Source: Ensifer adhaerens (GTDB taxonomy: Bacteria; Pseudomonadota; Alphaproteobacteria; Rhizobiales; Rhizobiaceae). Taken from it: DNA of 64,000 nt. A program made the position numbers and the translations under genes. The stretch is from positions 1 through 64,000 of the forward strand of contig NZ_LGAP01000010.1 of assembly GCF_001270265.1 (NCBI RefSeq). The letters run 5' to 3'. The number at the start of each line of letters is the position of its first letter. The first letter of the stretch is position 1. Positions 44,405 through 60,707 of the stretch are shown here, piece by piece. Below the pieces are notes generated by a model. The model saw nothing but the letters and a program-made list of their open reading frames with translations, was not told the origin of the DNA and made no database searches.

Positions 44405-45607
44405 TCACGGCCGCGTCAGAAGCATCGAGATGCCCTGTCCGACGCCGATACACATGGTCGCAACCGCGCGCTTCGCGCCCTGAGCCTCAAGCTCCAATGC
44501 AGCCGTAAGCGCCAGGCGCGCGCCCGACATGCCAAGCGGATGGCCGAGTGCGATGGCGCCGCCATTGGGGTTGACGTGGGGCGCATCGTCGGCAAGCCCC
44601 AGTTGCCGCATGCAGGCGAGGGCCTGTGCTGCAAAAGCCTCGTTGAGTTCGACGATGTCGATGTCGCCGATGCCAAGGCCTAGGCGTTCCAGGAGCTTTC
44701 GGGTGGAAAAGACAGGACCCATGCCCATGATCCGCGGAGGAACGCCTGCCGTCGCCATCCCGTCGACCCGAGCAAGCGGCTTGAGGTCATAGCGCTCAAC
44801 CGCGCGGCCAGAGGCAAGAATGAGCGCGGCCGCGCCATCGTTGACGCCGGATGCATTGCCGGCCGTCACCGTCCCATCGGCGCGGAACGGCGTCGGCAGG
44901 CTGGCAAGTTTTTCGATGGTCGTCTCACGCGGGTGTTCGTCCTGCTCGATGCGTGTCGTCTCGCCCTTGCGCCCCTTGATCGCATAGGGGGCGATTTCAC
45001 GGGCGAAACGCTTGCTCTTTTGCGCAGCCGCTGCACGGGCCTGGCTGCGGAACGCAAAATCGTCTTGGTCTGCGCGCGAAACAGCAAACTCGGCCGCAAC
45101 ATTTTCGGCGGTCTCCGGCATCGACTCGATGCCATATCGCGCTTCCATAACGGGATTGACGAACCGCCAGCCGATCGTCGTGTCGTGGATATCAGTGTTG
45201 CGCTGGAAGGGGCTCTCGGCCTTTGGCATGACGAAGGGAGCGCGCGACATGCTTTCGACGCCGCCGGCAATCACGATTTCAGCCTCGCCCAGGCGGATCG
45301 CGCGCGCGGCGTAACCGACGGCATCCAGGCCTGAGCCGCAAAGCCTGTTGATCGTCGTTCCGGGTACCGTGTCCGGCAGTCCCGCAAGCAGAGAGGCCAT
45401 GCGGGCAACATTGCGATTGTCCTCGCCTGCCTGATTGGCGCAGCCGAGGACGACCTCATCGATCCCCTCGGCAGGCACGCGGGGAAAGCGTGCCAGCGCC
45501 TCGCGGATTGCGTGAGCAGCAAGATCGTCGGGCCGCACCGCCGACAAGGCGCCGCCGTAGCGACCGATTGGCGTGCGAACGCCGCCGATGACATAGGCCT
45601 CGCTCAT
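44405..45607 (-). CDS. Acetyl-CoA acyltransferase (beta-ketoadipyl/3-oxoacyl-CoA thiolase type)
   Basis: A 400-residue thiolase with all catalytic residues: Cys90 in [14 protein letters not shown], the histidines in [14 protein letters not shown] and [17 protein letters not shown], and the second Cys in [12 protein letters not shown]. It resembles PcaF/PaaJ beta-ketoadipyl-CoA thiolases. It is the last gene of the minus-strand aromatic-CoA operon, and its start overlaps the FadJ-like gene by four bases. Expected role: thiolytic cleavage of the 3-oxoacyl-CoA formed after ring opening, giving acetyl-CoA and a shorter acyl-CoA. Confidence 0.88.
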
Positions 45608-47583
45608 GATACCGGGTCCTTGCTTTGCTGGGCGGCGAACATTGGCCCACCCTTGTGTGGCGGAAAGCCGTAGCCGTTGATCATCACCAGATCGATGTCG
45701 CCGGGACGCGCGGCGATTTCCTCGGCAATCAGTGCCGTTCCTTCATCGACCATTGCCTTCAAAAGCCGGCTCATGATCTCCGAGGGGGTGAAACTGCGCG
45801 GCGTGATGTTCTTGGCTGCCCGCGCCGCCTCGATCGCTGCTGTCACTTCCGGATCAATGGTCCGCTCGCCATGGGGATAGGCATACCAGCCGCGACCGCT
45901 CTTGCGACCGAGGCGGCCCGCCTCGCAAAGCCTGTCGGCGATTTCGACATAACGTGCGGCAGGATCCCGCGTCGCGGCCTGGCGCTTCCGGCGTGCCCAG
46001 GCGATCTCCAGCCCGGCCATGTCGTTGACGGCGAAGATACCCATCGGAAAGCCATAGGCCTCGAGCGCGGCATCGATCTCCTGAGGGAGCGCCCCATCCT
46101 CCAGCATGAATTCCGCCTCGCGGCGATAGGCGGAGAAGATACGGTTGCCGATGAAACCTTCGGTGACGCCGCAGACGACGGGCAGCTTGCCGAGGCGTTT
46201 CACAAAAGCGAGGACACTGGCCAGGGCGTCTGGCGAGGTCTTGGTGCAATCGACGACTTCGACAAGCCGCATGACATTGGCGGGCGAGAAGAAGTGTAAC
46301 CCAACCACGCGCGACGGATCGGCCGTGGCCGCGGCAATCGCATCGGGATCGAGGTAACTCGTATTGGTCGCAAGGATGGCGCCGGGTGTGACGATGCCGT
46401 CGAGCCTGCGAAACAAATCTGTCTTGACCTCAAGGTCGTCGAAAACCGCTTCGATGACGAGGTCGGCTTTAGCGAGGTCCGCGGCTTGCGCGGTTGTCTG
46501 CAATCGAGCGAGGCAGTCGTCGCGTCCATCCGCGGTCAGCCGTCCGGAGCGCACGGTCCTGTCGAGGGTCTCGGCGATGCGGGCCCTCCCGCTGGCGGCT
46601 GCTTCCTGCGTCTGCTCCAGCGCGATCACGCGGTGGCCAGAGGTCAAGGCGGCGACTGCGATGCCGGATCCCATTAGCCCGGTGCCGACCACTGCGACGG
46701 TCACGATCTTGCGCGGCGAGACTTTGTCGAGGCCCTCGACCTTTCCCGCGGCGCGCTCGGCGAAGAATACGTGCCGCAGGGCAGCGGACTCACCGGAATC
46801 GCGCAAACGCAGGAAGGTGGCGCGCTCTTCGGCCAATCCTTGTCTCAGGTTGAGCTCACCTGCTGCCTTGACGAGGCGAACGGCCTCCGCGGGAGCGGAC
46901 TGGCCGCGCGCTCTTGCCAGCACTTTCGCTTCCGCCGCACTGACCGCTGCCGGGTCCGTGGGTGGAACGCGAATCATACCGGTCCGACGCAGCGGCTTTT
47001 CGGCACATTCGTGCACCAGCGCGATGGCCGCGACAACGGGATGGGTGGCGATGCCATCGGCAAGCCCAAGCGTCACAGCTTCGCCCGCCTTGACGGCACG
47101 CCCCGTGCCGATGAGGTCGATGGCCGCAACCTGGCCGATCAACCGTGGCAGACGCTGTGTCCCGCCGGCACCCGGAACGATCCCGAGTTTCACTTCGGGC
47201 AGCCCGAACGATGCTTTTTCGCCAGCGATGCGGCCATGGCAGCCCAGCACGATCTCGCAGCCACCGCCAAGGGCTGCGCCGTTGACGGCAGAGACGACCG
47301 GCTTGTCGAAGCTCTCGATGCGGTCGATCACTTCCGGAAGCATCGGTTCGACCGGCGGCTTCCCGAATTCCTTGATATCAGCTCCGCCGATGAATGTGCT
47401 GCCTGCACCGGTGAGGATAACGCCTGCAATCGCCGGGAGACTGGCAGCATGATCGAGCGCCGCCACCAGGCCGGACCGAACATGCGCAGAGAGTGCGTTG
47501 ACGGGCGGGTTGTCGATGGTGACGACGAGAACGCCGTCTTCAAGTCGGGCGGAAACGCTCTGCGAAAATCTGATCTCGGGCAT
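45604..47583 (-). CDS. Fused enoyl-CoA hydratase/3-hydroxyacyl-CoA dehydrogenase (FadJ/FadB-like)
   Basis: A 659-residue bifunctional enzyme. The N-terminal crotonase domain (about 1-190) has [13 protein letters not shown] and both catalytic glutamates, in [10 protein letters not shown] and [18 protein letters not shown]. The NAD domain starts near residue 290 ([20 protein letters not shown]), with catalytic His in [17 protein letters not shown]. The C-terminal helical domain holds [20 protein letters not shown] and [15 protein letters not shown]. It would hydrate and oxidise the acyl chain after ring opening. It lies between RidA (11 bp) and the thiolase (overlap). Confidence 0.9.
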
Positions 47584-47594
47584 GCTCGCAAGCC

Positions 47595-47990
47595 TCAATC
47601 GGGGATGACGGCGGTGGCCTGGATCTCGATTTTGGCGCGGTCCTCGACCAGTGCGACCACCTGCATCGCCGCCATTGCGGGGAAATGCTTGCCGATAATG
47701 TCGCGGTAGGCCTGGCCAATGCCGCGGAGGTTGCCGACATATTCGTGCTTGTCGGTGAAGTACCACGTCATCGAGGTGATGTGGTGAGGCTCGGCTCCCC
47801 CCGTGGCGAGAACGGCAACCACATTCTTCAGCGTCTGGCGCACTTGCTCGACGAAATCGTCGGTTTCGAACTCGGAACGTTCGTTCCAGCCGATCTGGCC
47901 GCCGACGAAAACAGTGCGACCGTTGGCAGCGACGCCGTTGGCGTAACCGATGGGCTTTGCCCAACCTTCAGGTTGCAGGATGGTGTGCAT
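47595..47990 (-). CDS. RidA/YjgF-family protein (enamine/imine hydrolase type)
   Basis: A 131-residue RidA-fold protein: WAKPIGYANGVAANGRTVFV with GGQIGW at the ligand cleft and RAKIEIQATAVIPD at the C-terminus. The classic Arg105-type motif CxRV in enamine deaminases is replaced by KIEIQATA with the Glu kept, so it is a divergent member. ATG 47990 lies inside the end of the thioesterase gene. RidA proteins hydrolyse reactive enamines/imines to ketone plus ammonia. In an aminobenzoyl-CoA operon this would fit release of the amino group. That role is inference. Confidence 0.8.
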   Translation of the reverse strand: MHTILQPEGWAKPIGYANGVAANGRTVFVGGQIGWNERSEFETDDFVEQVRQTLKNVVAVLATGGAEPHHITSMTWYFTDKHEYVGNLRGIGQAYRDIIGKHFPAMAAMQVVALVEDRAKIEIQATAVIPD

Positions 47991-48396
47991 TGGTCGTCTC
48001 CAGATGTTGTGACAGCGCGGCGCGGATGTCATCCGGCCAGGCTAGTGAAGCGTGATTGTCGAGCGAGGTGGCAACGACGCGCTGTTTCGCGGTCCAGAGC
48101 ACGGTGTCCCTTGCAGACACCGTATGCTCCATGTCGAGCGACGACCGGCCGATGCCATTGACCGCCAGCGCGAAGTCAAGCTCGTCGCCTTGAAAGCCCG
48201 GACAAACGAAGGTGAGATCGAGGCGCACCGTCGGTACGCCGATCCGCCGCTCGTCGACCATCGCCTTCCAGGGAAAGCCGAGCGACGCGAAGAAGTCTTC
48301 CGTCACCCCGACGAGGATGTTGAGGTAGGACGGGAAGTAGGCGATCCCTGAGGGGTCGCAGTCTCCGAACCGCAGCGGCCTCTTGGTCCTGTACAT
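47968..48396 (-). CDS. Hotdog-fold acyl-CoA thioesterase (4-hydroxybenzoyl-CoA thioesterase type)
   Basis: A 142-residue hotdog protein. The diagnostic motif is LRFGDCDPSGIAYFPSYLN, containing the catalytic Asp (DPSGIAYF). Then VPTVRLDLTFVCPGFQGDEL and the final strand MEHTVSARDTVLWTAKQRVV complete the fold. It would hydrolyse aromatic or alicyclic acyl-CoA, perhaps as a safety valve to recover CoA from dead-end intermediates. A similar thioesterase occurs in 2-aminobenzoyl-CoA clusters of other bacteria. It overlaps the RidA start by 23 bases. Confidence 0.85.
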   Translation of the reverse strand: MYRTKRPLRFGDCDPSGIAYFPSYLNILVGVTEDFFASLGFPWKAMVDERRIGVPTVRLDLTFVCPGFQGDELDFALAVNGIGRSSLDMEHTVSARDTVLWTAKQRVVATSLDNHASLAWPDDIRAALSQHLETTNAHHPAT

Positions 48397-48408
48397 GCGT
48401 GTCGGACC

Positions 48409-49596
48409 TCAGTTCGCGAAAGCGGCGATGCCGGTAATGGCACGGCCGAGGATGAGCGCATGGATGTCGTGCGTGCCCTCATAGGTGTTGACCACCTCGA
48501 GGTTTACGAGGTGTCGGGCCACCGGAAACTCGTCCGAGATCCCGTTTCCGCCGAGCATGTCGCGGGCGGTTCTGGCGATATCCAGCGCCTTGCCGCAGGA
48601 ATTGCGCTTGACGATCGAGGTCAGTTCGACCGGCGGGTTGCCTTCGTCCTTCATCCGTCCGAGGCGCAGGCAGCCCTGCAGGCCAAGGGCGATTTCCGTC
48701 GCCATGTCCGCCAGTTTCTTCTGGATCAGTTGGTTGGCGGCAAGCGGCCGGCCGAACTGCTTGCGGTCGATCACATATTGGCGCGCCGTCCCGTAGCAGG
48801 ATTCCGCCGCACCGAGCGCGCCCCAGGCGATACCGAAGCGCGCGGAGTTGAGGCAGGTGAAGGGGCCTTTCAGCCCCGTCACGTCAGGCAGCATGTTTTC
48901 TTCCGGCACGAAGACCTCGTCCATGACGATCTGGCCGGTGATCGACGCCCGCAGACCCACCTTGCCGTGGATCGCCGGCGCGCTCAGGCCCTTCCATCCC
49001 TTTTCAAGGATGAAGCCACGGATGACGCCATCGGAAGTCTTTGCCCAGACGACGAAGACATCAGCGATCGGCGCATTGGAGATCCAGGTCTTGGAGCCGG
49101 AGAGCAGATAGCCGCCGTCGACCTTGGCGGCGCGGGTGATCATTGAACCGGGGTCGGAGCCGTGATCGGGTTCCGTCAGGCCGAAGCAGCCGATCTTCGT
49201 TCCGGCAATCAGCCCCGGCAGGTACTTGCGTTTCTGCGCTTCGCTGCCGAAGGCATAGATTGGTACGATCACCAGGGAAGATTGCACGCTCATCATCGAG
49301 CGGTAGCCGCTGTCGATGCGTTCGATCTCGCGAGCGATCAGGCCGTAGGACACGTAGTTCAGTCCCGCGCCGCCATAGTCCTCGGAGACCATGGGGCCGA
49401 GCAGGCCGAGCTCGCCCATCTCGGCGAAGATCGAGGGATCGGTCTTTTCGTGACGAAATGCTTCCTGCACGCGAGGAGCAAGCCGGGCCTCGGCGTAGCC
49501 CTCGGCGGTGTGGCGCACCATGCGTTCTTCTTCCGTCAACTGTGCATCCAGGTTGAATGGATCCTGCCAGTCGAACGACGCCTTTGAGCCATGCAT
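48409..49596 (-). CDS. Acyl-CoA dehydrogenase, glutaryl-CoA dehydrogenase type
   Basis: A 395-residue flavin dehydrogenase close to GcdH. Landmarks: [20 protein letters not shown] at the start, [37 protein letters not shown] (substrate/FAD loop), [20 protein letters not shown], and the catalytic Glu in [20 protein letters not shown]. True GcdH enzymes oxidise and decarboxylate glutaryl-CoA to crotonyl-CoA, a step expected when a six- or seven-carbon dicarboxyl-CoA is shortened. GGGGAGGT eight bases upstream fixes ATG 49596 rather than the GTG three codons earlier. Confidence 0.88.
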
Positions 49597-49611
49597 GCTC
49601 GACACCTCCCC

Positions 49612-50808
49612 TTATCGTCCCGTGCTTTTCATCAGCTCGCGGCCGATGATGAGCTTTTGAACCTCGGTCGCGCCCTCGTAGATGCGCAGCGCACGGATTT
49701 CGCGATAGAGCCGCTCGGTGATCTCGCCGACGCGCACCCCCCGACCGCCGAAGAGCTGCAGCGCCTGGTCGATGACCCATTGCGCATTCTCGGTCGCCGT
49801 CATCTTGGCCATTGCCGCCTCGCGGGTCGTCGGCCGCTTCTGCACGTCGCGCTGCCATGCCGTGCGGCAGGTCAAGAGTGCAGCAGCGTCGATTGCGGTC
49901 GCCATCTCGCCGAGCGTGCTTTGTGCGGTCGGCAGATCGGCAAGCGTCGCGCCGAACATCTTGCGGTTTTTCGCGTGCCCCACCGCCTCGTCGAGTGCTC
50001 GTCGGGCAAAGCCGATGGCAGCCGCAGCGACGGACGGACGGAAGATGTCGAGCGTGCGCATGGCAATCTTGAAGCCTTCGCCCGGACTGCCGAGCAGCTG
50101 TGACGCCGGGATACGGCAATTGTCGAAACGAAGCCGGGCGAGCGGATGCGGCGCAATCGTCTCGATGCGCTCAGCGATCGTGAAGCCCGGTGTGTCGGCG
50201 AAGACCACGAAGGCGGAGATGCCGCGCGTGCCGGGCGCTTCACCGGTGCGGGCGAAGATGGTGTAGACATCGGCGATACCGCCGTTCGAGATCCAGGTCT
50301 TTTCGCCATCGAGCACGAAGTGCTCTCCGTCGCGCCGGGCAGCGCAGGCCATTGCCGCGACATCCGATCCCGCATCGGGCTCGGAAAGCGCAAAGGCGGA
50401 GATCCAATCGCCGCGGGCGACCTTGGGCAGAACGGCCTGCTTCAGCGCCTGCGAACCGGAAAGGCTGATCGCTCCGGTGCCGAGCCCCTGCATGGCGAAG
50501 GCAAAGTCTGCAAGGCCTTCGGTGTAGGCCAGTGTCTCGCGGATAAGGCAGAGCGACCGGCTGTCGATCTCTTCGCTCGCGCCGCCGAACGCCTTCGGCA
50601 CGCAATGGCGAAGCACGCCCGCAGCGCCGAGAGCGCTGACCAAATGCCGGCAGGCGGCATCGACATTTGCGCGATCGATTTCACCGAGACCGCCACGGGC
50701 TATGAGCGTGTCCAACTCCGTGGCAAGGGCGCGGTGGCTCTCCTCGAAGAACGGCCAGTCGAGATGATCGCGGGTCGGCTGCCCGGGGGTCGTCTTGAGG
50801 GAACTCAT
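49612..50808 (-). CDS. Acyl-CoA dehydrogenase (second paralogue of the operon)
   Basis: A 398-residue acyl-CoA dehydrogenase with all three domains: helical N-domain, beta domain ([39 protein letters not shown]) and C-domain ([20 protein letters not shown]). [20 protein letters not shown] has Glu where the catalytic base lies in the glutaryl- and short-chain types. It differs clearly from the GcdH-like neighbour 15 bp downstream, so the operon uses two oxidations. It may act on the alicyclic ring-CoA. ATG 50808 lies two bases after the crotonase stop. Confidence 0.87.
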
Positions 50809-50810
50809 AC

Positions 50811-51653
50811 TCAGTTTCCCCTGAACTCGGGCTTGGCCCTGGCGGCAAAAGCCTCGAAGGCGCGGCGGAAGTCGCCGGTCGCCATGCAGATCGCCTGGGC
50901 TTGTGCTTCCGACTCGATCAGCTGGTCGATGCCCATCGCCCATTCCTGATCGAGCATCTTCTTTGTCATCGCATGGGCGAACCATGGGCCATCGGCAATG
51001 GTGCGTGCGAATTTCTGCGCCTCGGAAAGCAGCGACGGACGCTCGTGCAGTGCATTGTAGAAGCCCCAGGCATGCCCTTCCGTTGCGGTCATCACCCGAC
51101 CGGTGAAGAGCAGTTCTGCGGCGCGTCCCTGGCCGATGATGCGGGGAAGAATGCCGCAGGCGCCCATGTCTGCTCCCGCCAGTCCGACGCGGGTAAAAAG
51201 AAACGCGGTCTTCGCTTCCGGTGTCGCCACGCGGAAATCGGAGGCCATCGCCAGGATTGCCCCGGCGCCGGCGCAGATGCCGTCGACGGCGGCGATGACG
51301 GGCTGGGGGCACGCGCGGATCTGGCGCACCAGTTCGCCGGTCATCCGGGTGAAATCGATGAGGTCGGGCATCGACATGTGTGTCAGAGGCTCGATGATCT
51401 CGAAGACGTCGCCGCCGGAGGAGAAGTTGTCACTGGCGCCGGTCAGCACCACGGTGCGCACGTCGCTGGCGCGGCCGAGTGCCCGGAAGAGATCGACAAG
51501 CTCTTCGTAGCTCTCGAAGGTCAGCGGATTTTTCTTTTCCGGACGGTTGAGGGTGATCGTGGCGACCCGGCCTTCGGCATCCGTTTCGAACAGGAAGTGC
51601 TTGGCCTTGTGGTCCTTGAACGGGCGCTTCTTGGCCTGCATCGGGTTTGTCAT
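50811..51653 (-). CDS. Crotonase-family protein lacking both hydratase glutamates
   Basis: A 280-residue enoyl-CoA hydratase/isomerase-fold protein. The oxyanion-hole segments are intact ([31 protein letters not shown]). By alignment to rat mitochondrial hydratase, Glu144 falls on Ile133 and Glu164 on Arg155 ([15 protein letters not shown]), so it cannot use the normal hydratase mechanism. Asp162 near the site may matter. It may instead be a ring-opening hydrolase, isomerase or other crotonase chemistry on an alicyclic CoA ester. It lies two bases downstream of the SDR gene and two bases upstream of the acyl-CoA dehydrogenase. Confidence 0.82.
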
Positions 51654-51655
51654 CT

Positions 51656-52432
51656 CTATCCTCCGAGAACTTCGCCACCGGCGACTGCGATGGCTTGGCC
51701 AGTGATCGCGGTCGCCTTCTCCGACACGAGCCAGGAGACGGTGTCGGCCACCTCGTCAGGCGTCACCAGGCGCCCTTGCGGATTGGCCCGCGCGAGGCTT
51801 GCACGTGCTTCCTCGCGCGAGCGGCCGGTCTTCTCACTGATCGTATCGAGCGCGCCGTCAATCAACGGTGTGTCCGTGAAACCAGGGCAGACGGCATTGA
51901 TCGTGACGTCGGTTCGCGCAAGCTCGAGTGCCAGCGCCCGCGTCAGGCCGATGACGCCGTGCTTCGATGCACAATAGGCCGAAACATAGGAATAGCCGGT
52001 GAGGCCCGCCGTGCTCGCGACGTTGACGATCCGGCCGTTTCCGGCACGGCGCACGGAGGCAAGTGCTGCCTGTGTCACCAGAAAGACCCCGGTCAGGTTG
52101 ATCGTGAGCACGCGTTGCCAGAGTGAGAGATCGGTTTTCTCGAACGGCGCCGAAGGGGCCTCGCCGGCGCAGTTGACGAGAACGGCAATCTCTCCGCTCG
52201 TCGCAATCGCAGCCGAAATGCCTTGTCCGACCGCTGCCGGGTCGGTCACATCGAACCCATGGTGGACATGGGCCTGGCCGCCTGATGACAGAATTTCCTC
52301 TCGCACGGCTTCGAGCGGCGCTGCGCGGCGCCCGGCAAGGCTGACGATATGGCCATCGGCTGCGAGCGCGATCGCGATCGCCTTGCCGATACCGCTTCCG
52401 GCACCTGTGACGAGAGCGTGCCTGCGGTTCAT
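51656..52432 (-). CDS. SDR-family oxidoreductase of the aromatic-CoA operon
   Basis: A 258-residue classical short-chain dehydrogenase: [20 protein letters not shown] at the N-terminus, [13 protein letters not shown] (NNAG variant), catalytic Ser in [13 protein letters not shown] and [11 protein letters not shown] (Tyr-x3-Lys). The cofactor strand ends [11 protein letters not shown], typical of NADP(H)-preferring members, and the C-terminal region [16 protein letters not shown] is standard. ATG 52432 overlaps the monooxygenase stop by four bases. Plausible role: reduction or oxidation of the ring ketone/alcohol after dearomatisation. Confidence 0.87.
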
Positions 52433-54750
52433 GGCTTGCCTGCCGTCGTTGCTGCGCGCGCCAGATTGTTCACATATTGCGCGCGGGCGGAGTGATACTG
52501 CTTCGGCCAGGGCTGGCCGTCATAACCGATTTTCGCTGCCTCGTGCATGACGAAGGACGGATCCGCCAGATGCGGGCGGGCAATCGCGCAGAGATCGGCA
52601 CGGCCGGCAGCGATGATCGAATTTGCGTGATCCGCTTCGGAAATCGCCCCGACGGCGATGGTCGGAACCTGGATTTCGTTGCGGATCTTGTCAGAAAAGG
52701 GTGTCTGGAACAGCCGGCCGTAGACCGGCTGTTCTTCCTTGACCACCTGGCCGGAGGAGCAGTCGATCATGTCGGCGCCAGCTTCCTTGAACAGGCGGGC
52801 GAAGACTGCTGCGTCTTCCGGCGTGTTGCCGCCCTCGTGCCAGTCGTGCGTCGACAGACGCACCGACATCGGCCTGTCTTCGGGCCAAACCTTGCGAACA
52901 GCGTGGAACACTTCGAGCGGGAAGCGGGCGCGGGCCGCGTGGTCGCCGCCATATTCGTCCGTGCGAAGGTTGGTGAGCGGTGACAGGAAGCTCGACAGCA
53001 GGTAGCCGTGCGCCACGTGCAGTTCGAGGATGTCGAAGCCGAGGTCGCGGGCCCGCTCGGCGGCCTGCACGAAGTCGGCAACGACGCGGTCCATATCCGC
53101 GCGGGTCATTTCGCGCGGCGTGTCCGAATGCTTGAGGTAGGGCAGGGCCGACGCCGAAATGAGCGGCCAGGCGCCTTCGCTCAAGGGCTGGTCGATCCCC
53201 TCCCAGGCCAGTTTGGTCGCTCCCTTGCGTCCGGCGTGGCCGAGCTGGATACCGATCTTGGCGGGGGTCTGCTGGTGCACAAAGTCGACGATGCGCCTGA
53301 AAGCCTGCGTCTGTTCGTCGTTCCACAGACCCAGGCATCCCGGCGTGATGCGGGCGTCGGCCGATACACAGGTCATTTCCGGGAAGACGAGTGCAGCGCC
53401 TCCCATGGCGCGCGCGCCCAGATGCACCAGATGAAAGTCGTTCGGTACGCCATCCGTCGCCGAATACATCGCCATCGGCGAAACCACGATACGGTTCCTG
53501 AGCGTCAGGCCGCGGAGCTTGAACGGCGTGAACATCGGCGGCGGGACGGCCCCGTTTGCCGCCGGCTCGACACCGGCGCGTTCGGCGAACCAGCGTTCGA
53601 AGCCTTCGAGCCAGTCCTTGTCGCGCAGGCGAAGGGTTTCGTGGCTGATGCGCTGCGAGCGGGTCAGCATCGAATACATGAACTGCTCGGGCTCCAGCGT
53701 ATCGGCATAGCGCGTGCCGACGACCTCGAACCACTCCATGGCATTGCGAGCCGCATTCTGGATGCGGGCGACATCGACCCGACGGACCTCTTCGTAAGCC
53801 GCCAGCACGTCGGGGATGTTGGCCTTGTCGTGGCCGAGCGTATCGAACTGGCGGGTAAGCTCGATGGCGTCGTCGATCGCAAGCTTGGTGCCCGAACCGA
53901 TGGCGAAATGCGCGGTGTGGGCGCTGTCGCCCATCAGCACGACGTGGCTATTGCCGTTGAAATGGCTCCAATTCTCGCAGATTAGCCGGCCGAAGTTCAG
54001 CCAGGCTGAGCCGCGCATATGGCGCGCATTGGTCATCAGCTTGTGACCGTCGAGCGTCTCGGCAAATAGCTTTTCGCAGAACGCGATCGACTGCTGCTGG
54101 TCCATCTGGTCGAGGCCATGGGCTTGGAAAACATCATCCGTGGTCTCGACGATGAAGGTCGAGGTGTCTTCGTCGAAACGATAGATATGCGCCTGGAACC
54201 AGCCGTGTTCGGTGCGCTGGAAGTCGAAGGTGAAGGCATCGAAGCGCTTGTCCGTGCCGAGCCAGACATAGCGGTTCGGACGTACGACCATGTCCGGCTG
54301 GAAGATATCGGCGTATCTGTTTCGGATTCTGGAGTTGACGCCGTCGGAGGCGATGATGAGGTCAGCATCGGCAAATTGCTCGTCGCTTTCCACGTCCTGC
54401 TCGAAAACGAGTTCGACACCGAGCTCGAGGCAACGATCCTGGAGGATGTTGAGCATCTTCTTGCGACCGATGCCGACGAAGCCGTGACCCGTCGTCCTGA
54501 TCTTGCGGCCCTTGAAGACCAGCTCGATATCGTCCCAATGATTGAAGGAGACCTCGATCGCCTCAGCTGTCTCCGGATCCCACTGGCGCATCGACTGCAT
54601 CGTCGCGTCCGAGAAGACCACCCCCCAGCCGAACGTGTCGAAGGCGCGGTTCCGCTCGACGACCGTTACGTGGTGTTGCGGGTGTTGGCGCTTCATGAGC
54701 AGCGCAAAATAAAGGCCGGCTGGCCCGCCACCGATACAGACGATCCGCAT
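52429..54750 (-). CDS. Fused flavin monooxygenase/old-yellow-enzyme: 2-aminobenzoyl-CoA monooxygenase/reductase or salicylyl-CoA 5-hydroxylase type
   Basis: A 773-residue two-domain enzyme. Domain 1 (about 1-385) is an FAD aromatic hydroxylase: [47 protein letters not shown], and [20 protein letters not shown]. Domain 2 (about 400-760) is an FMN old-yellow-enzyme barrel: [54 protein letters not shown], and [20 protein letters not shown]. This fusion is known from Azoarcus evansii, where it hydroxylates and dearomatises 2-aminobenzoyl-CoA, and from salicylyl-CoA 5-hydroxylase. Downstream beta-oxidation genes and the kynureninase nearby favour aminobenzoyl-CoA. GGAGGAG six bases upstream fixes ATG 54750. 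First gene of the operon. Confidence 0.88.
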
Positions 54751-54849: not shown

Positions 54850-54865
54850 ATTTCAAGCTTAAAAT
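54850..54865. promoter_or_regulatory. Candidate MarR operator upstream of the aromatic-CoA operon
   Basis: ATTTCAAGCTTAAAAT is a near-perfect 16-bp palindrome (one mismatched pair) centred on AAGCTT, 100 bp before the monooxygenase start and 108 bp beyond the MarR gene's stop. Size, AT-richness and position fit a MarR-family site over the operon promoter. Confidence 0.5.
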
Positions 54866-54973
54866 TGTTTTGCGTGAATGCGCCTTCCGCAAGCGCGGAT
54901 GTGCCGCACGGACCGCTGGCGGCGGGCCGTTTCTCAGACGTCAAGAAAAGTGGTGGGCGAAGCCGGAAGCGTC

Positions 54974-55498
54974 TTAGGTGTTTCTTGCCAGCGCGGAGAT
55001 AACGGAGCGCTTGAGCTTGGCGAGTTCATCCATCAGCACGCCGCCTTCCTTGGGCGAAACGCCCGCGAATAGCTCGGAGATCCAGTCCGCATGCGTTGCC
55101 GCCATCTTCTCGAACTCGGCGCGGCCGAAGGGTGTCAGCGCGATGACTTGCACGCGCCGATCCGTCGGCAGGGTGGTGCGGCTGATGTGGCCGCTCTCGG
55201 TGAGGCGCTCCACCAGAACCGTTATGTTGCCTGGCGAGACCATCATGCGTTTGGAAACTTCACCAAGCACCATACCATCAGGGGCGCGCTCGAGTTGGGC
55301 CATCAGGTCGAAACGCGGCAGCGTCGAATCGAATTCCTCCCGGAGCCGCCGACGGATCTCGCTCTCGACCAGCGTCGAACAGGTCAGCAAGCGCAGCCAT
55401 AGCCTGAGCTCGGCGCGGTGATCGCCCGGAGCCTCGAGCGCCTTGGTCTCGCCATCCACCCATTCCGGCGAAGTGTCGAACTTGTCTTCACCCATCAT
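54974..55498 (-). CDS. MarR-family transcriptional regulator
   Basis: A 174-residue MarR protein. The N-terminal helices (HRAELRLWLRLLTCSTLVES) lead to the winged HTH (DLMAQLERAPDGMVLGEVSK, MMVSPGNITVLVERLTESGH, RTTLPTDRRVQVIALTPFGR). Such proteins near aromatic-CoA genes (BadR, HcaR and relatives) often sense the acyl-CoA intermediate and repress until it binds. It is on the same strand as, and just upstream of, the 773-aa enzyme gene. Start ATG 55498 is preferred; a GTG at 55528 would add ten weakly conserved residues. Confidence 0.88.
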   Translation of the reverse strand: MMGEDKFDTSPEWVDGETKALEAPGDHRAELRLWLRLLTCSTLVESEIRRRLREEFDSTLPRFDLMAQLERAPDGMVLGEVSKRMMVSPGNITVLVERLTESGHISRTTLPTDRRVQVIALTPFGRAEFEKMAATHADWISELFAGVSPKEGGVLMDELAKLKRSVISALARNT

Positions 55499-55601
55499 AG
55501 CAAACGTCCGCTTCTTATCCTGCCGCACACATCGGCAGGCACTTCCCTGTCCTTTTGCTTTTAGAGACGTTTCCGGCTCTTGGACAGGCTGTCACGCGCC
55601 G

Positions 55602-56375
55602 TCATTTGGACGCATGCCGCGGCAACGATTGGCGCCCGGCCGGAGAGGAGCGGCCGCCATCCTCGGATTGGACATAGACATTGACCGTAAAGCCGATGTG
55701 GTCGGTCATCAGCCTGCGGGCGCGTTCGACGTTGCGGTCGAGTGCTGCCTCCATCAGTTCGGTATGATGTTCGATCGCCATGGCGTCCTGCAAGGCGGCA
55801 ACCGCTTCTTCGTAGCCCTCGCTCATCCCTGCCGCCGCCCTTAATGTCGGGGCGAGACTGAGGAAGCGATGGTGGCGGCGAAGCTGGTCGGAAATCGTCG
55901 CCTGAAAACGGGAAAGCCAGCTCGAGCTTGCCGCGCCGATCAAGGCAGCGTGGAAAGCGGCGTGCTTCTCGTCCCACTCGTCGATCTCGCTTTCGGAGAC
56001 GTTTTCGACGGCAATCTTGCAGCGGGACAGCCGGTAGTGCGCAGTGACGACGGCAGACTCCCATGCGCTGTCGCCCTTTTCGATCGACTCGATGAGCAGC
56101 GGTATTTCGACGACCGAGCGTGCTCGGGTGAGGTCGTCGAGCTCCTCGCGTGAAACCGGTGCAACGGCGAAGCCGCGGTTGCTGATCGCCGTGACCAGCC
56201 CTTCGGCTTCCAGTCGCGACAAGGCCTCCCTAAGAGGCGTCCAGCCGATACCGTAGCTTTCGCGCAACGCACTCAGCTTCATCGGCGCACCCGGCCTGAG
56301 CCGTGTCGCCAGGATGTCGCGGCGTAGCAACCGGTAGGCCGATTCTGTTTTGGTCGACTGTTCGTGGTCTTGCAT
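55602..56375 (-). CDS. GntR-family (FCD subgroup) regulator of the divergent importer/kynureninase operon
   Basis: A 257-residue regulator. The winged HTH (about residues 12-75) has YRLLRRDILATRLRPGAPM, LSALRESYGIGWTPLREALS and EAEGLVTAISNRGFAVAPVS. The FCD domain follows from about residue 85 (ARSVVEIPLLIESIEKGDSA), with metal-site residues in EKHAAFHAALIGAASSSWLS and IEHHTELMEAALDRN. It is divergent from the ABC importer and kynureninase genes, with 160 bp between starts and AT-rich palindromes in the gap. Kynurenine or anthranilate are plausible effectors. Start ATG 56375; the preceding TTG is less likely. Confidence 0.87.
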   Translation of the reverse strand: MQDHEQSTKTESAYRLLRRDILATRLRPGAPMKLSALRESYGIGWTPLREALSRLEAEGLVTAISNRGFAVAPVSREELDDLTRARSVVEIPLLIESIEKGDSAWESAVVTAHYRLSRCKIAVENVSESEIDEWDEKHAAFHAALIGAASSSWLSRFQATISDQLRRHHRFLSLAPTLRAAAGMSEGYEEAVAALQDAMAIEHHTELMEAALDRNVERARRLMTDHIGFTVNVYVQSEDGGRSSPAGRQSLPRHASK

Positions 56376-56408
56376 CAAGTTCCCTTAACGCCCGCATCGC
56401 ATCGACAC

Positions 56409-56452
56409 AAATATATATAGTTTTGGGGGCATTGTTGAAAATATATATATTT
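56409..56452. promoter_or_regulatory. Paired ATATAT palindromes, candidate FCD-GntR operators
   Basis: AAATATATATA at 56409-56419 and the perfect palindrome AAATATATATATTT at 56439-56452 lie about 30 bp apart (roughly three helical turns) in the divergent promoter region. They stand out against the surrounding GC-rich DNA. The second overlaps the likely importer promoter. Confidence 0.5.
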
Positions 56453-56537
56453 ATTTGACAAGAAGTCAGACCGTCTCCATCATCCACGCACGCCGCCGAG
56501 GAGGGCGGTAACGCTCGTCAGATTCTGGGAGGGATGT

Positions 56538-57518
56538 ATGAGCAAGAGGACTTGGCTTTCGGGATTGGTTGTCGCCGGCGCGCTGGCATGGGGAGCGGGA
56601 ACGGCCGCTGCTGATCCGATCCGTATTGGCATCGCCAATTTCGGCGAACATCCGCAATTGAGCGCATCGATTGCCGGCTTCAAGAAGGCGCTGGCTGAAA
56701 ACGGCTTCGTGGAAGGCACCGATGTCGTCTACACCGAAAGCCACACAAACTTCGACGCCTCGCTCGTGCCGCAGATGATTGCCAAGCTGCAGGCAGAACA
56801 GCCGAAACTGATCTATACGATCACCACGCCCGTCTCGCAGATCGCCAAGAAGGCGCTCGCCGGATCCGGGATCCCGGTCATCTTTTCCGCCGTCACCGAT
56901 CCGGTGGCCGCGAAGCTGGTTCCCTCCTGGGAGGCGGGCGATGACGGCATGACCGGCGCGACTGACCTTCAGGATGTGGCTGCCGTGATGGCCTTCACCC
57001 GCAAGCTCCTGCCGGAAGCCAAGCGTTTTGGCGTGCCCTACAATCCGGGCGAGGCGAATGACACGGCGCTGCTCGACAAGATCAAGGAGGCCGCACCTGC
57101 CGCTGGCTTCGAGGTCGTGGCTGTTGGCGTCGACAACGTCAACGACATCCAGCAGCGTATCGCCTCCTTCGCCGGCAAGGCCGACGTGATCTACACCCCC
57201 GCATCCAATCTGCTCCAGCCGGCTATCGGCGCCGTCTCGGCGGCTGCGCGCCAGGCGCAGATCCCAATCGTCAATTCCGACGACGGTGCCGTCCGCAACG
57301 GCGTCGTGCCGGCGAGCTTTGCCGTGAACTACGAGCAGGTCGGCGTCAATGCCGGCAAGATTGCCGCGGAGATCCTCAAGGGCAAGGATCCGAAGACGAT
57401 CGCGCCGTCGCGCCCGAGCTATGAAGATCATGCGCCTTTGGTCTCAAAGAAGGCAATGGCCGCCTTTGGCATCGAGGCGCCCGCATCGCTCGCCGACTGC
57501 GGTTGCGTGGTCGACTGA
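56538..57518 (+). CDS. ABC importer binding protein, TrpX-like family (probable kynurenine/aromatic amino acid uptake)
   Basis: A 326-residue periplasmic binding protein. A Sec signal spans about residues 1-25 (TWLSGLVVAGALAWGAGTAA). The mature part begins DPIRIGIANFGEHPQLSASI and shows the ABC_sub_bind (PF04392-type) pattern: YTITTPVSQIAKKALAGSGI, PVIFSAVTDPVAAKLVPS, RFGVPYNPGEANDTALLDKI, and VNYEQVGVNAGKIAAEILKG. Members in Firmicutes (TrpX) are linked to tryptophan uptake. It is the first gene of an operon ending in kynureninase, so kynurenine or tryptophan-derived ligands are inferred. GGGAGGG lies five bases before ATG 56538. Confidence 0.85.
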   Translation: MSKRTWLSGLVVAGALAWGAGTAAADPIRIGIANFGEHPQLSASIAGFKKALAENGFVEGTDVVYTESHTNFDASLVPQMIAKLQAEQPKLIYTITTPVSQIAKKALAGSGIPVIFSAVTDPVAAKLVPSWEAGDDGMTGATDLQDVAAVMAFTRKLLPEAKRFGVPYNPGEANDTALLDKIKEAAPAAGFEVVAVGVDNVNDIQQRIASFAGKADVIYTPASNLLQPAIGAVSAAARQAQIPIVNSDDGAVRNGVVPASFAVNYEQVGVNAGKIAAEILKGKDPKTIAPSRPSYEDHAPLVSKKAMAAFGIEAPASLADCGCVVD

Positions 57519-57537
57519 CCTTCGACCGAACTGACTC

Positions 57538-57665
57538 CTGCATGTTTCCCTAAATCGTCTCCGATTTAAGGATAAAAACATGCAGCATTCAAAGTGTTAC
57601 AGCGACCTTTGCGCGCCTTAAAAGACGCGCGGCGCTGTAGGTGACAGCGCAGGGAGCGCTGTCAC
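57538..57665. repeat. Mosaic of three adjacent palindromes (RIME/ABC-like rhizobial intergenic element)
   Basis: Three hairpins lie in a row between the binding-protein and ATPase genes. First, CTGCATGTTT/AAACATGCAG (57538-57547 and 57576-57585) with inner TAAATCG/CGATTTA. Second, TACAGCG/CGCTGTA (57598-57604 and 57633-57639) with inner GCGCG/CGCGC. Third, a perfect GTGACAGCGC/GCGCTGTCAC (57641-57650 and 57656-57665). The first two units resemble palindromic elements repeated in Rhizobium, Sinorhizobium and Agrobacterium genomes. In mRNA the array would separate binding-protein from ATPase expression. Confidence 0.75.
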
Positions 57666-57688
57666 TTCATGGGTTAAGGGGGGAGCCA

Positions 57689-58468
57689 ATGCTGGAAATC
57701 AGATCGGCCCGCAAGGTATTCTACAAGGGGCAGGCAGACGAAAAGGTCGCGCTCGACGGCCTCAACCTGCGCCTTGCAACAGGCGAGTTCGGCGTGGTCA
57801 TCGGTTCGAACGGCGCCGGCAAGAGCAGCATGCTCAACGCCATCTCCGGTGCACTCGTGCTCGATACGGGACACGTCGTCATCAATGGCGATGACGTGAC
57901 GGCGATGCCCGTCCACAAACGCGCCATGCGGCTGGCGCGCGTATTCCAGGACCCGATGCGCGGTACCGCCGCAAGCATGACGGTGGCGGAAAACATGTTG
58001 CTCGCCGACCTGCGCAGCAACAGGCGCACCCTGCGCCGCGGCCTGAACGCGACGCGGCTCGCGTCCTACAAAGAGCGGCTGTCTCTGCTTGGGCTCGGCC
58101 TGGAAAACCGTCTCGACACCCGGGTGGAATTGCTGTCAGGGGGCCAGCGGCAATCCCTGTCGTTGATCATGGCGGTCGGCGGTTCGCCGGAACTGCTGCT
58201 ACTTGACGAACACACCGCGGCCCTCGACCCGCGCACTGCCGATATCGTCATGCAGGCGACGATCCGAGCGGTCGAAGCCTTGAAGCTGACCACGCTCATG
58301 GTGACGCACAACATGCAGCACGCCGTGGATTTCGGCCACAAGGTCGTCATGCTCGATGCCGGCCGCGTTCGCCTGGAAATCGACGGCAAGGACAAGGCCC
58401 AGACGACGGTGCCGGACCTGATCGGCCACTTCTCCGTCAAAACCGACCGCATGTTCCTGGCGAGCTGA
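57689..58468 (+). CDS. ABC importer ATPase, TrpZ-like
   Basis: A 259-residue ATPase. Walker A is GSNGAGKSSM (about residues 39-48), VFQDPMRGTAASMTVAENML carries the Q loop, signature LSGGQRQSLSLIMAVGG, Walker B LLLLDEHTAALDPRTADIVM with His in place of the usual Pro after Glu, and switch MVTHNMQHAVDFG. This DEHTAALDP form is typical of the TrpXYZ-like group. GGGGGGAG five bases upstream gives ATG 57689. It starts just after the palindrome array and six bases before the permease gene. Confidence 0.87.
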   Translation: MLEIRSARKVFYKGQADEKVALDGLNLRLATGEFGVVIGSNGAGKSSMLNAISGALVLDTGHVVINGDDVTAMPVHKRAMRLARVFQDPMRGTAASMTVAENMLLADLRSNRRTLRRGLNATRLASYKERLSLLGLGLENRLDTRVELLSGGQRQSLSLIMAVGGSPELLLLDEHTAALDPRTADIVMQATIRAVEALKLTTLMVTHNMQHAVDFGHKVVMLDAGRVRLEIDGKDKAQTTVPDLIGHFSVKTDRMFLAS

Positions 58469-58473
58469 CGATC

Positions 58474-59397
58474 ATGGATATCATTCAAAACATCATCTCG
58501 AGCTTCGTCTCGCTCGTTCCCGTCACCCTGGCGCAAAGCCTGATCCTCGCCTTTGTGGTGCTGGGGATCATGATCCCGTTCCGCATGCTGAGTTTCCCGG
58601 ATCTGACAAGCGAAGGCGCGTTCCCCCTCGGCGGCTGCGTCTGCGGCGTTCTGATGGCGGCCGGCATGTCGCCATTGGCTGCAATCGCCATTGCCTTGGT
58701 GGCCGGCTTCGTCGCCGGTTGCTGCACGGCGTTCATTCACCTGCGCTTCCGGATCCACACTCTGCTCGCCGGCATCCTGATGATGACGATGCTCTATTCG
58801 ATCAATCTGCGCATCATGGGTCGCTCGAACCTCTCGGTCTTCGGAGCGCCGACGGTCTTCGACTGGGTGCCAGGGCTGCAACCGGGTTTCCCGCCAAGCA
58901 AGATCGTTGTGGCAGGCCTCATCGCGCTCGTCGTCTTCTTCCTGCTCTATCATTTCTTCAGGACGGAGAAGGGAACAGCGGTCCGCGCCGTCGGCGCCAA
59001 TCCCGACATGGCGGAGGCCCAGGGCATCAATGTGTGGATGGCGACAATTGGCGGCGTGGGGCTCGCGGGCGCGTTTTCGGCGGGCGGCGGCGCGCTCATG
59101 GTGCAGTCGCAAGGGTTTGCCGACGTCAACATGGGGCTCGGCATCCTGATCAACGGCCTCGCGGCGCTGATGATCGGCGAAGCGATCGTCGGCAAGCAAA
59201 GCGTGCTGCGCCAACTCGCCGCCCCATTCGTCGGTGCGGTCGTCTACTATCAGCTCGTCTCCCTCTGCCTGGCGGCCGGCATGCCGCCGCCGGATCTGAA
59301 ACTTGCGACCGGCCTGTTCGTTCTGGCCATGCTGGCTCTTCCGAGCCTCAAGCGAAGTCGCGGGCCGGCGCCCGCCCGCGAAACCGTTCGCGAATAA
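58474..59397 (+). CDS. ABC importer permease, TrpY-like
   Basis: A 307-residue membrane protein of the branched-chain-permease superfamily with eight or nine hydrophobic segments (VTLAQSLILAFVVLGIMI; MSPLAAIAIALVAGFVAG). The segment LSFPDLTSEGAFPLGGCVCG and the coupling loop VRAVGANPDMAEAQGINVWM match single-permease TrpY-like importers, so a homodimer channel is expected. It is followed 15 bp later by kynU. Confidence 0.87.
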   Translation: MDIIQNIISSFVSLVPVTLAQSLILAFVVLGIMIPFRMLSFPDLTSEGAFPLGGCVCGVLMAAGMSPLAAIAIALVAGFVAGCCTAFIHLRFRIHTLLAGILMMTMLYSINLRIMGRSNLSVFGAPTVFDWVPGLQPGFPPSKIVVAGLIALVVFFLLYHFFRTEKGTAVRAVGANPDMAEAQGINVWMATIGGVGLAGAFSAGGGALMVQSQGFADVNMGLGILINGLAALMIGEAIVGKQSVLRQLAAPFVGAVVYYQLVSLCLAAGMPPPDLKLATGLFVLAMLALPSLKRSRGPAPARETVRE

Positions 59398-59412
59398 ATG
59401 AGGACCAAATTT

Positions 59413-60660
59413 ATGAGTGCAGTTCCTGATTTTGCAGCGATCGAGGCCATGGATGCGGCCGACGTGCTGCGCCCGATGCGCGAACGTTTTATCCTGCCGC
59501 CGGGCCTCATCTATCTCGACGGCAACTCGCTCGGAGTTGCTTCGACCGCTGCCTTCGACGAGCTCCGCAAGGCCGCAACCGAGGAATGGGGTCAGGATCT
59601 CATTCGCAGCTGGAACACCGCCGGCTGGTTCGACATGCCGCTTGCGCTCGGTGACCGGGTCGGGCGGCTGATCGGGGCGGCTGCCGGCCAGACCGCCGTT
59701 TGCGACACCACGTCGATTAACATCTACAAGGCCCTGCATGCGGCCATGGCCTTGAGACCGGATCGTTCGGTGATCGTTAGCGAAGGCGGAAGTTTCCCTA
59801 CCGATCTCTACATGGCCGAAGGCGTGGTTTCGACGCGCCCTGGCGCCTCGCTGCGTCTCGAAGGGGTCGATGCGCCCGATATCGAGGACCTGATCGACGG
59901 CGACGTTGCCGTGGTTCTGGTCAACCATGTCAACTACAAGTCCGGCGAACTGCGCGATATGGCGGCGCTGACGCGCAAGGCGCACGAGCACGGCGCGCTG
60001 GTCATCTGGGATCTCTGCCATACGGCCGGCGCCCTGCCGGTCGATCTTGACGGCGCTGATGCCGATTTTGCCGTCGGCTGCACCTACAAGTACCTGAACG
60101 GCGGCCCCGGAGCCCCTGCCTTCATCTACGCCGCCACGCGTCACCACGGCGATATCCGCCAGCCGCTCAGCGGCTGGTGGGGGCATGCTCGCCCCTTTGC
60201 CTTCGAGAAGCACTATGCCGCCGGCGAGGGGATCCGCCGCTTCCTCTGCGGAACGCAGCCGATCCTGTCGCTCCGTGCGCTCAAGGGCGCGCTCGACATC
60301 TGGGACGTGGTCGACATGACCCAGCTGCGCGAGAAGAGCATCCGGCTCACGAACCTCTTCATCACGCTCGTCGAAGCGAAATGCGGCGCCTACGGCCTCG
60401 AGCTCGAAAGTCCGCGCGACGGGACCAAGCGCGGAAGCCAGGTTTCGTTCAGCCATCCGAACAGCTACGAGATCATGCAGGCGCTCATTGCCCGCGGCGT
60501 CATCGGCGATTTCCGTGCACCCACGACGATGCGGTTCGGCTTCACGCCGCTCTATGTGAGCTACGCCGACGTATGGCAGGCGGTTGCCGTCCTCGAAGAG
60601 ATCTTGCGCACCGGGGCATGGCAGGACGCGCGCTTTGCCGTCCGGGCGGCCGTGACCTGA
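59413..60660 (+). CDS. kynU: Kynureninase
   Basis: A 415-residue fold-type I PLP enzyme. Landmarks are LIYLDGNSLGVASTAAFDEL, DTTSINIYKALHAAM, SEGGSFPTDLYMAEG, VNHVNYKSGELRDM, the PLP aspartate region VIWDLCHTAGALPVDLDGAD, and the Schiff-base Lys226 in GCTYKYLNGGPGAPAF. KynU hydrolyses L-kynurenine to anthranilate and L-alanine. It closes the importer operon and is followed by a strong hairpin. It stands about 5 kb upstream of the divergent 2-aminobenzoyl-CoA-type operon, which could consume the anthranilate. GAGG nine bases upstream supports ATG 59413 over 59398. Confidence 0.93.
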   Translation: MSAVPDFAAIEAMDAADVLRPMRERFILPPGLIYLDGNSLGVASTAAFDELRKAATEEWGQDLIRSWNTAGWFDMPLALGDRVGRLIGAAAGQTAVCDTTSINIYKALHAAMALRPDRSVIVSEGGSFPTDLYMAEGVVSTRPGASLRLEGVDAPDIEDLIDGDVAVVLVNHVNYKSGELRDMAALTRKAHEHGALVIWDLCHTAGALPVDLDGADADFAVGCTYKYLNGGPGAPAFIYAATRHHGDIRQPLSGWWGHARPFAFEKHYAAGEGIRRFLCGTQPILSLRALKGALDIWDVVDMTQLREKSIRLTNLFITLVEAKCGAYGLELESPRDGTKRGSQVSFSHPNSYEIMQALIARGVIGDFRAPTTMRFGFTPLYVSYADVWQAVAVLEEILRTGAWQDARFAVRAAVT

Positions 60661-60673
60661 TCTCGATGTTCTC

Positions 60674-60707
60674 AAAGACTGCGGGCGGCCTGCCGCCTGC
60701 AGTCTTT
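60674..60707 (+). terminator. Terminator-like hairpin after kynU
   Basis: AAAGACTGC pairs with GCAGTCTTT, and inside them GGCGGC pairs with GCCGCC. The result is a 15-bp stem with a single bulge and short loop, 13 bp after the kynU stop. It ends in TTT and separates kynU from the next gene. Confidence 0.7.

Follow-up and report, generated by a model that had tools for sequence, protein, structure and literature searches.

A locus of Ensifer adhaerens predicted to break down tryptophan and kynurenine through 2-aminobenzoyl-CoA, and its linked Rid-family protein

We analysed a window of 64,000 nucleotides (bases 1-64000 of contig NZ_LGAP01000010.1, here C2) from the genome of Ensifer adhaerens, which comprises 7.46 Mb in 99 contigs. 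A locus that starts at position 44405 and continues past the end of the window very probably encodes a complete predicted catabolic route for tryptophan and kynurenine together with two importers (Table 1). Its central enzyme is a fusion protein of the 2-aminobenzoyl-coenzyme A (CoA) monooxygenase/reductase type (ABMR), which heads an operon of beta-oxidation genes. Kynureninase (KynU), tryptophan 2,3-dioxygenase (TDO) and a CoA ligase are encoded nearby. The genes named in an earlier reading of the window, made from the DNA letters alone (the sequence-only reading), are all present, although that reading overlooked a small gene of the Rid family within the operon. The locus is not peculiar to this genome and recurs in relatives.

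The ABMR operon

The minus-strand operon contains, in the order of transcription, the genes for ABMR, a short-chain dehydrogenase (SDR), an enoyl-CoA hydratase, two acyl-CoA dehydrogenases, a thioesterase, the Rid-family protein, a hydratase/3-hydroxyacyl-CoA dehydrogenase fusion and a thiolase. All of these are intact reading frames, and the distances between neighbouring genes from ABMR to the thiolase range from -23 to +12 bases, which argues for a single transcript. The best start of ABMR is at 54750, and the start of the hydratase/dehydrogenase fusion was placed at a methionine codon in agreement with a 656-amino-acid gene annotated in a relative. The SDR, the thioesterase, the acyl-CoA dehydrogenases and the fusion were assigned to Pfam families only, as none of them passes an equivalog cut-off; the separate hydratase is a candidate for the ring-opening or the hydratase step. 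Intact frames and family matches also bear out the sequence-only description of an importer and a kynureninase divergent from this operon.

ABMR carries a Pfam FAD_binding_3 domain (residues 134-347) followed by an old-yellow-enzyme domain (Oxidored_FMN, residues 426-755), in whose alignment a His-x-x-His-x-Tyr motif is retained. Over residues 1-772 the protein is 73% identical to a reading frame of Aromatoleum buckelii, and its nearest relatives among the named loci described below belong to Sinorhizobium/Ensifer, with up to 96% identity.

The NCBIfam model passed by ABMR, NF006101, bears the name 'bifunctional salicylyl-CoA 5-hydroxylase/oxidoreductase', and the sequence-only reading had itself named a salicylyl-CoA/gentisate alternative. 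ABMR would then be a salicylyl-CoA 5-hydroxylase, the operon would serve salicylate breakdown via gentisate, and kynureninase would be a bystander. In line with this, an ABMR-like gene on a Cupriavidus taiwanensis plasmid (62% identity; L186:12001-16533) adjoins genes for a cupin and a fumarylacetoacetate-hydrolase-family protein; this fusion is perhaps a variant that converts salicylyl-CoA towards gentisate. However, neither gentisate dioxygenase nor fumarylpyruvate hydrolase was found among the locus proteins scanned or among the annotated genes of the corresponding loci of Ensifer sp. PDNC004 and Aminobacter sp. SR38. Moreover, the old-yellow-enzyme domain aligns over its full length with solved ene-reductases and would be pointless ahead of aromatic ring cleavage, the genes after ABMR are of the beta-oxidation type, and the ligase described below resembles anthranilate-CoA ligase. 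TDO and KynU are also frequently encoded close to ABMR across the genomes of the family. The salicylate-gentisate route was therefore rejected as the principal interpretation, and we regard it as very unlikely.

A CoA ligase and TDO beyond the window

Past the end of the window, the minus strand continues with genes for LivM, LivH, a LivK-type binding protein, TDO and an AMP-forming CoA ligase. The sequence-only reading had described the locus as being without its CoA ligase and had guessed that the gene might lie beyond position 64000. The ligase is indeed absent from the window, and the guess was right: the proposed search of the flank for a benzoate/2-aminobenzoate-CoA ligase yielded a protein that passes TIGR02262 and is encoded 3.2 kb past the window end. 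The notion of a missing ligase was rejected, since the gene adjoins in the same locus. Among PDB entries the protein ranks anthranilate-CoA ligase 4wv3 first (311 bits) and benzoate-CoA ligase 2v7b second (268 bits), and it is predicted to be the anthranilate-CoA ligase of the hybrid pathway. A search of the genome for the AMP-binding family gave 21 matches, one of which (C2:67619-68668) is this ligase.

The TDO gene lies 3 bases downstream of the ligase gene, and no second copy is found in the genome at E <= 1e-30. With TDO encoded next to the ligase, the route need not begin with imported kynurenine but can also begin with tryptophan. The route from kynurenine through anthranilate and 2-aminobenzoyl-CoA to beta-oxidation, as first drawn from the DNA, is well supported, but its starting point had been set too narrowly.

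Divergent from the ligase gene, we found a gene for an alpha/beta hydrolase with HGGFW and GHSAG in the alignment. Its PDB matches include the putative esterase 2pbl (257 bits) and the kynurenine formamidase 4e11 (62 bits, 5e-16). As no protein of the genome passes the KynB cut-off (TIGR03035; best 46 versus 223 bits), this hydrolase is the best candidate for the formamidase. The best match in the genome to the large subunit of anthranilate 1,2-dioxygenase stays below the cut-off (462 versus 672 bits) and is perhaps a benzoate-type dioxygenase, and the same holds for the cut-off of 3-hydroxyanthranilate dioxygenase (23 versus 146 bits).

Gene content and family identity were observed directly; from them we infer the substrates, what the importers carry, the Rid step and the sequence of reactions that follows ABMR. 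TDO would open the indole ring of tryptophan, and the candidate formamidase would yield kynurenine, which might also be imported. Kynureninase would cleave kynurenine to anthranilate and alanine, and the AMP-forming ligase would convert anthranilate to 2-aminobenzoyl-CoA. ABMR would hydroxylate and reduce the ring to 2-amino-5-oxocyclohex-1-ene-1-carbonyl-CoA, the product reported for this enzyme (PMC4539516; here and below, statements on cited papers refer to the available parts of their texts). Hydrolysis of the enamine by Rid would then release ammonia and leave a dioxo-cyclohexane-carbonyl-CoA. The crotonase-family hydratase, the SDR, the two acyl-CoA dehydrogenases and the hydratase/dehydrogenase fusion would open and beta-oxidise this ring product, in an order suggested by chemistry only, and the PcaF-type thiolase would perform the last step.

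Conservation of the locus and coupling to tryptophan breakdown

The locus was compared with named loci and with two genome samples. The named loci comprise the best 80 among 585 ABMR matches, with flanks of up to 10 kb, genes farther away being scored as absent. From their gene counts, matches covering less than 40% of the query or overlapping a better match were excluded, and the hydratase is undercounted in them because the query frame of the acyl-CoA dehydrogenase extended over it. The family sample comprises 121 genomes and the phylum sample 249, with 2 of the 34 positives of the latter also being in the family sample. Presence was called at E <= 1e-150 for ABMR and E <= 1e-18 for Rid, and up to 8 ABMR candidates per genome were scored in the family sample and up to 4 in the phylum sample. 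Several genomes are in many contigs, and genes on different contigs were scored as far apart; Fisher tests of co-occurrence in both samples ignore kinship.

The entire gene set, including the ligase, TDO and the hydrolase, is present in identical order in Ensifer sp. PDNC004 (L092). Aminobacter sp. SR38 (L093) also has the set, but there the gene of the PALP-family protein (see below) is relocated, a few genes are inserted and one of the acyl-CoA dehydrogenases is lacking. Two Mesorhizobium loci (L026 and L052) are arranged differently, with ABMR, the importer, TDO, kynureninase (53% identity), the ligase and the hydrolase within 22 kb. In S. meliloti AK21 the ABMR operon and the ligase are present with no annotated kynureninase or TDO in 38 kb, a stretch whose edge cuts a gene of the class-V-aminotransferase fold. 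Similarly, M. amorphae has ABMR, the ligase and the hydrolase with no annotated kynureninase or TDO in 30 kb. These two loci indicate that the anthranilate part can exist separately. In S. meliloti AK21, insertion-sequence genes flank the operon and ligase (L095:13997-27467) at either end, and the 152 kb plasmid that carries them is typed as conjugative.

In the family sample, ABMR was found in 72 genomes, TDO in 56 and KynU in 66. ABMR is present in 54 of the 56 genomes with TDO compared to 18 of the 65 without it. ABMR and TDO lie within 20 kb of each other in 33 of 54 genomes, ABMR and KynU in 27 of 57, and all three in 26 of 54. When the ABMR copies are grouped by identity, TDO or KynU is found within 20 kb of 7/10 copies at 80% or more, 2/16 at 70-79%, 22/41 at 50-69% and 4/8 below 50%. 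According to these counts, the coupling of ABMR to tryptophan breakdown is widespread, though not universal, and the parts also live apart. The ligase, KynU and TDO genes are consecutive on the ABMR strand in 13 of 73 family neighbourhoods; Thalassospira marina is a named and annotated case of this run, with a RidA-family gene two genes further.

Kynureninase and the two importers

The closest PDB relative of the kynureninase is 1qz9. In the alignment, judged by eye, Trp and Thr occupy the positions of the 1qz9 residues Trp64 and Thr282, whereas 3e9k, the human enzyme, has His and Asn. The entry 7s3v, an engineered kynureninase, is otherwise 3e9k-like and also has Trp and Thr, again judged by eye. 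We assume that these two residues are linked to a preference for kynurenine.

Genes for a MarR- and a GntR-family regulator separate ABMR from the divergent importer. The binding protein of this importer, classed as TrpX-type by the sequence-only reading, is a member of Pfam PF04392 but scores below the cut-off of the TrpX equivalog (174 versus 390 bits), and we call the system TrpX-like. A minus-strand frame at 56466-57431 was rejected as a gene, as it has no family match and the plus-strand frame there encodes the binding protein. The coupling of importer and kynureninase, earlier put forward from the arrangement of the genes, recurs elsewhere. The two co-occur in the identical 14 of the 80 named loci, and on a plasmid of Rhizobium tropici CIAT 899 (L177:5993-11900) a GntR regulator (74% identity), the importer, kynureninase and the alpha/beta hydrolase form a module, with neither ABMR nor TDO within a stretch of 18 kb. 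This module suggests uptake of ready-made kynurenine. The TrpX-like importer would serve kynurenine or formylkynurenine, and tryptophan is also a possible cargo.

The genes of the Liv-type importer accompany ABMR and the ligase also where kynureninase is missing from the stretch (for example L036, L037 and L057), and the data suggest that this system may carry anthranilate or tryptophan. The same loci, together with the presence of TrpX in the Pfam family of the binding protein, are consistent with another division of labour, in which tryptophan or anthranilate, and not kynurenine, is the cargo of the plus-strand importer, with the Liv-type system taking up another of these compounds. We consider this quite possible, at somewhat less than an even chance; the tie of the plus-strand importer to kynureninase in the same loci, and the R. 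tropici module with its kynureninase and hydrolase, speak against it and for kynurenine or formylkynurenine as its cargo.

The PALP-family protein encoded after kynureninase passes no cut-off among the 17 NCBIfam families listed. Its gene is present in 10 of the 80 named loci, every one of them with kynureninase, and occurs at two different positions.

A Rid-family protein that accompanies ABMR

The Rid gene overlaps the thioesterase gene by 23 bases, and its counterparts in four relatives bear the annotation 'RidA family protein'. Although the match to TIGR00004 (2.2e-14) stays below the cut-off (54 versus 106 bits), 38 distinct PDB sequences match the protein at E <= 0.001 (best 1.2e-9), which places it in the Rid superfamily; their names include YjgF, TdcF, UK114, YabJ and 2-iminobutanoate/2-iminopropanoate deaminase. 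The catalytic Arg105 of RidA (FPAR) is absent: among 118 aligned copies, near-duplicates kept, 111 have Met, 4 have Ile and 3 a gap at this place. The Met speaks against standard RidA activity. A single-sequence structure prediction was poor (mean pLDDT 51.9) and was not used.

Rid is encoded downstream of ABMR on the same strand in 76 of the 80 named loci (73 by a coordinate filter plus L056, L067 and L080 by eye); the SDR was counted in 69 of the 80 by a different method, a blast filter. In L025, L073, L082 and L084 the Rid gene is outside the stretch, yet it is present elsewhere in each genome, including that of Aromatoleum buckelii. In the family sample, 71 of the 72 ABMR genomes also have Rid, compared with none of the 49 that lack ABMR; in the sole exception (G056) ABMR is on a contig of 12.5 kb. 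The distance between the two genes is at most 20 kb in 59 of the 71 genomes. In 11 genomes they are on different contigs or separated by over 30 kb; in 6 of these Rid lies within 12 kb of TDO. The phylum sample gave identical sets for Rid and ABMR (34 and 34, with 215 of 249 genomes lacking both), and Rid is within 20 kb of ABMR in 29 of 34. The weakest best Rid match among the positives of both samples has an E-value of 1.1e-36, so that the choice of 1e-18 as cut-off is not decisive for the co-occurrence. Three genera of the phylum sample (g112, g123 and g124) each include species with both genes and species with neither; kinship alone is therefore insufficient to explain the link. A Rid gene is likewise no more than 10 kb away from ABMR in Deinococcus psychrotolerans (57% identity) and on a plasmid of Arthrobacter sp. 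ERGS1:01 (40%, opposite strand). In D. psychrotolerans (L185:19360-22210), genes for a cyclase-family and a thiamine-pyrophosphate-binding protein stand between the ligase and Rid, which perhaps represent a formamidase or another ring-opening route.

Rid proteins hydrolyse enamines or imines, and when an acid is bound, its carboxylate is in contact with Arg105 (PMC4433059). We propose that the arginine-less Rid deaminates the cyclic beta-enamino thioester formed by ABMR and is an obligate pathway enzyme across Pseudomonadota, a proposal to which we give an even chance. The arginine might be dispensable because the carboxyl group of the substrate is a CoA thioester, with no carboxylate to hold. 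In anthranilate-grown Arthrobacter, C7H8O4 was detected as its CoA ester, perhaps cyclohexanedione-carboxyl-CoA; this implies deamination, and the available part of that paper names no enzyme for the step (PMC3534580). Pathway-specific enamine deamination is found in other members of the Rid family, namely RutC (PMC8113886) and the 2-aminomuconate deaminase AmnE (PMC6742747), and 3-aminoacrylate may be viewed as the open-chain counterpart of the enamine in the ABMR product. However, RutC requires Arg104, where the Rid protein described here has Met.

Alternatively, Rid could be a damage-control or other accessory protein or act on another imine, with the ring ammonia being lost spontaneously. 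The ABMR product was reported to be unstable below pH 5 (PMC3534580), and no tested Rid protein without the arginine has shown deaminase activity. The functions of Rid4-7 were called completely unknown in a survey of 2015 (PMC4433059), in 2021 still none of those tested, which lack Arg105, had shown deaminase activity, and the R104A variant of RutC is inactive (PMC8113886). In addition, no Rid gene was found within the 12 kb examined around ABMR on the C. taiwanensis plasmid. These points count against the deaminase proposal, and we take the alternative seriously at slightly less than an even chance. The near-perfect co-occurrence and the closeness of the genes in both samples, as well as the standing of RutC and 2-aminomuconate deaminase as pathway enzymes, fit a fixed step of the pathway instead.

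Table 1 Features of the locus (positions on contig C2, identical to window positions up to 64000)
Feature	Position	Strand	Basis
3-oxoadipyl-CoA-type thiolase (PcaF)	44405..45607	-	NCBIfam TIGR02430, 654 bits (cut-off 597)
Enoyl-CoA hydratase/3-hydroxyacyl-CoA dehydrogenase fusion	45604..47583	-	Pfam ECH_1, 3HCDH_N and 3HCDH
Rid-family protein, 131 amino acids, Met at the RidA Arg105 place	47595..47990	-	TIGR00004 below cut-off; PDB Rid matches
4HBT-type thioesterase	47968..48396	-	Pfam 4HBT_2, 7.5e-14
Acyl-CoA dehydrogenase 1	48409..49605	-	Pfam; passes no NCBIfam cut-off
Acyl-CoA dehydrogenase 2	49612..50808	-	Pfam; frame and start inspected
Enoyl-CoA hydratase family protein	50811..51653	-	NF006107, 466 versus 330 bits
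Short-chain dehydrogenase (SDR)	51656..52432	-	Pfam adh_short, 1.7e-55
ABMR, 2-aminobenzoyl-CoA monooxygenase/reductase-type fusion	52429..54750	-	NF006101, 1358 versus 1078 bits
MarR-family regulator	54974..55528	-	Pfam; MarR relatives recur beside ABMR (synteny)
GntR-family regulator	55602..56378	-	Pfam; recurs with importer and kynureninase
ABC_sub_bind (TrpX-like) substrate-binding protein	56538..57518	+	Pfam PF04392, 6.2e-55
ABC transporter ATPase	57641..58468	+	Pfam ABC_tran
ABC transporter permease (BPD_transp_2)	58474..59397	+	Pfam
Kynureninase	59398..60660	+	TIGR01814, 356 versus 246 bits; PDB 1qz9, 477 bits
PLP-dependent dehydratase-like protein (PALP)	60773..61741	+	Pfam PALP
LivF-type ATPase, second importer	61750..62436	-	NCBIfam similarity; listed cut-offs not passed
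LivG-type ATPase, second importer	62433..63227	-	NCBIfam similarity; listed cut-offs not passed
LivM-type permease, truncated by window end	63175..64000	-	Family similarity
Tryptophan 2,3-dioxygenase (TDO)	C2:66350-67186	-	TIGR03036, 427 versus 391 bits
Benzoate-CoA-ligase-family protein, AMP-forming	C2:67190-68854	-	TIGR02262, 383 versus 375 bits
Alpha/beta hydrolase	C2:69092-69952	divergent from ligase	PDB similarity

Discussion

In bacterial tryptophan catabolism, the anthranilate branch runs from TDO via a formamidase to kynureninase. The locus resembles this branch in that TDO and kynureninase exceed their NCBIfam cut-offs; it differs in that neither KynB nor an anthranilate dioxygenase does so here, and anthranilate would be passed on as its CoA thioester. 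The second known system is the aerobic hybrid (abm) pathway of Azoarcus evansii (PMC4539516). This species is now placed in Aromatoleum, and the likeness to its pathway consists in ABMR, via the frame of Aromatoleum buckelii. In E. adhaerens, TDO, kynureninase, the candidate formamidase, a kynureninase-linked importer and Rid adjoin.

The reconstruction of Cupriavidus metallidurans CH34 lists abm, abmG, kynU and kyn genes in one genome, and its available text describes neither a Rid protein nor an importer, nor does it place the genes in a single locus (PMC8879955). Each step of the pathway is known biochemistry, and given this Cupriavidus list the coupling of kyn and abm functions is not new either. 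Enamine deaminases of COG251 are among the predicted members of the BoxR and CatM/BenM regulons of Betaproteobacteria, which is a further likeness to the Rid link; these regulons concern benzoate and catechol, and the available text does not mention the 2-aminobenzoyl-CoA pathway (PMC6449761). Among the open-literature entries listed by our searches, judged by titles, starts of abstracts and term counts, we found no publication that connects the 2-aminobenzoyl-CoA pathway with a Rid protein, none that describes the locus as a unit, and no paper on kynureninase together with 2-aminobenzoyl-CoA.

Several observations weigh against the proposed route. The formamidase assignment draws on distant similarity, and two cyclase-family (PF04199) proteins encoded elsewhere in the genome exceed the Pfam cut-off. 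The hydrolase gene also stands beside ABMR where TDO is missing from the stretch (L127, L129, L131, L132 and L151). TDO is lacking in 18 of the 72 genomes with ABMR, and 9 of the 66 genomes with KynU lack ABMR. For ABMR copies at 70-79% identity, TDO or KynU is close in just the 2 of 16 given above, and the gentisate-like neighbours on the C. taiwanensis plasmid belong here as well. Furthermore, C. metallidurans, for which both kyn and abm genes are listed, fails to grow on anthranilate (PMC8879955) and on tryptophan (PMC2842291). On the other side, Cupriavidus necator JMP134, which has abm genes, is reported to grow on all proteinogenic amino acids except glycine, methionine, arginine and lysine, and hence on tryptophan (PMC2842291); we count this in favour of the route.

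Overall, we consider the pathway reading sound and the locus a fuller version of known biochemistry, which could lead tryptophan and kynurenine to central metabolism without catechol. The link to Rid joins two questions, namely how ammonia leaves the hybrid anthranilate pathway and what role Rid proteins without the arginine have. If true, the proposed step would give Rid proteins that lack the catalytic arginine their first activity and would assign an enzyme to the deamination step of the 2-aminobenzoyl-CoA pathway.

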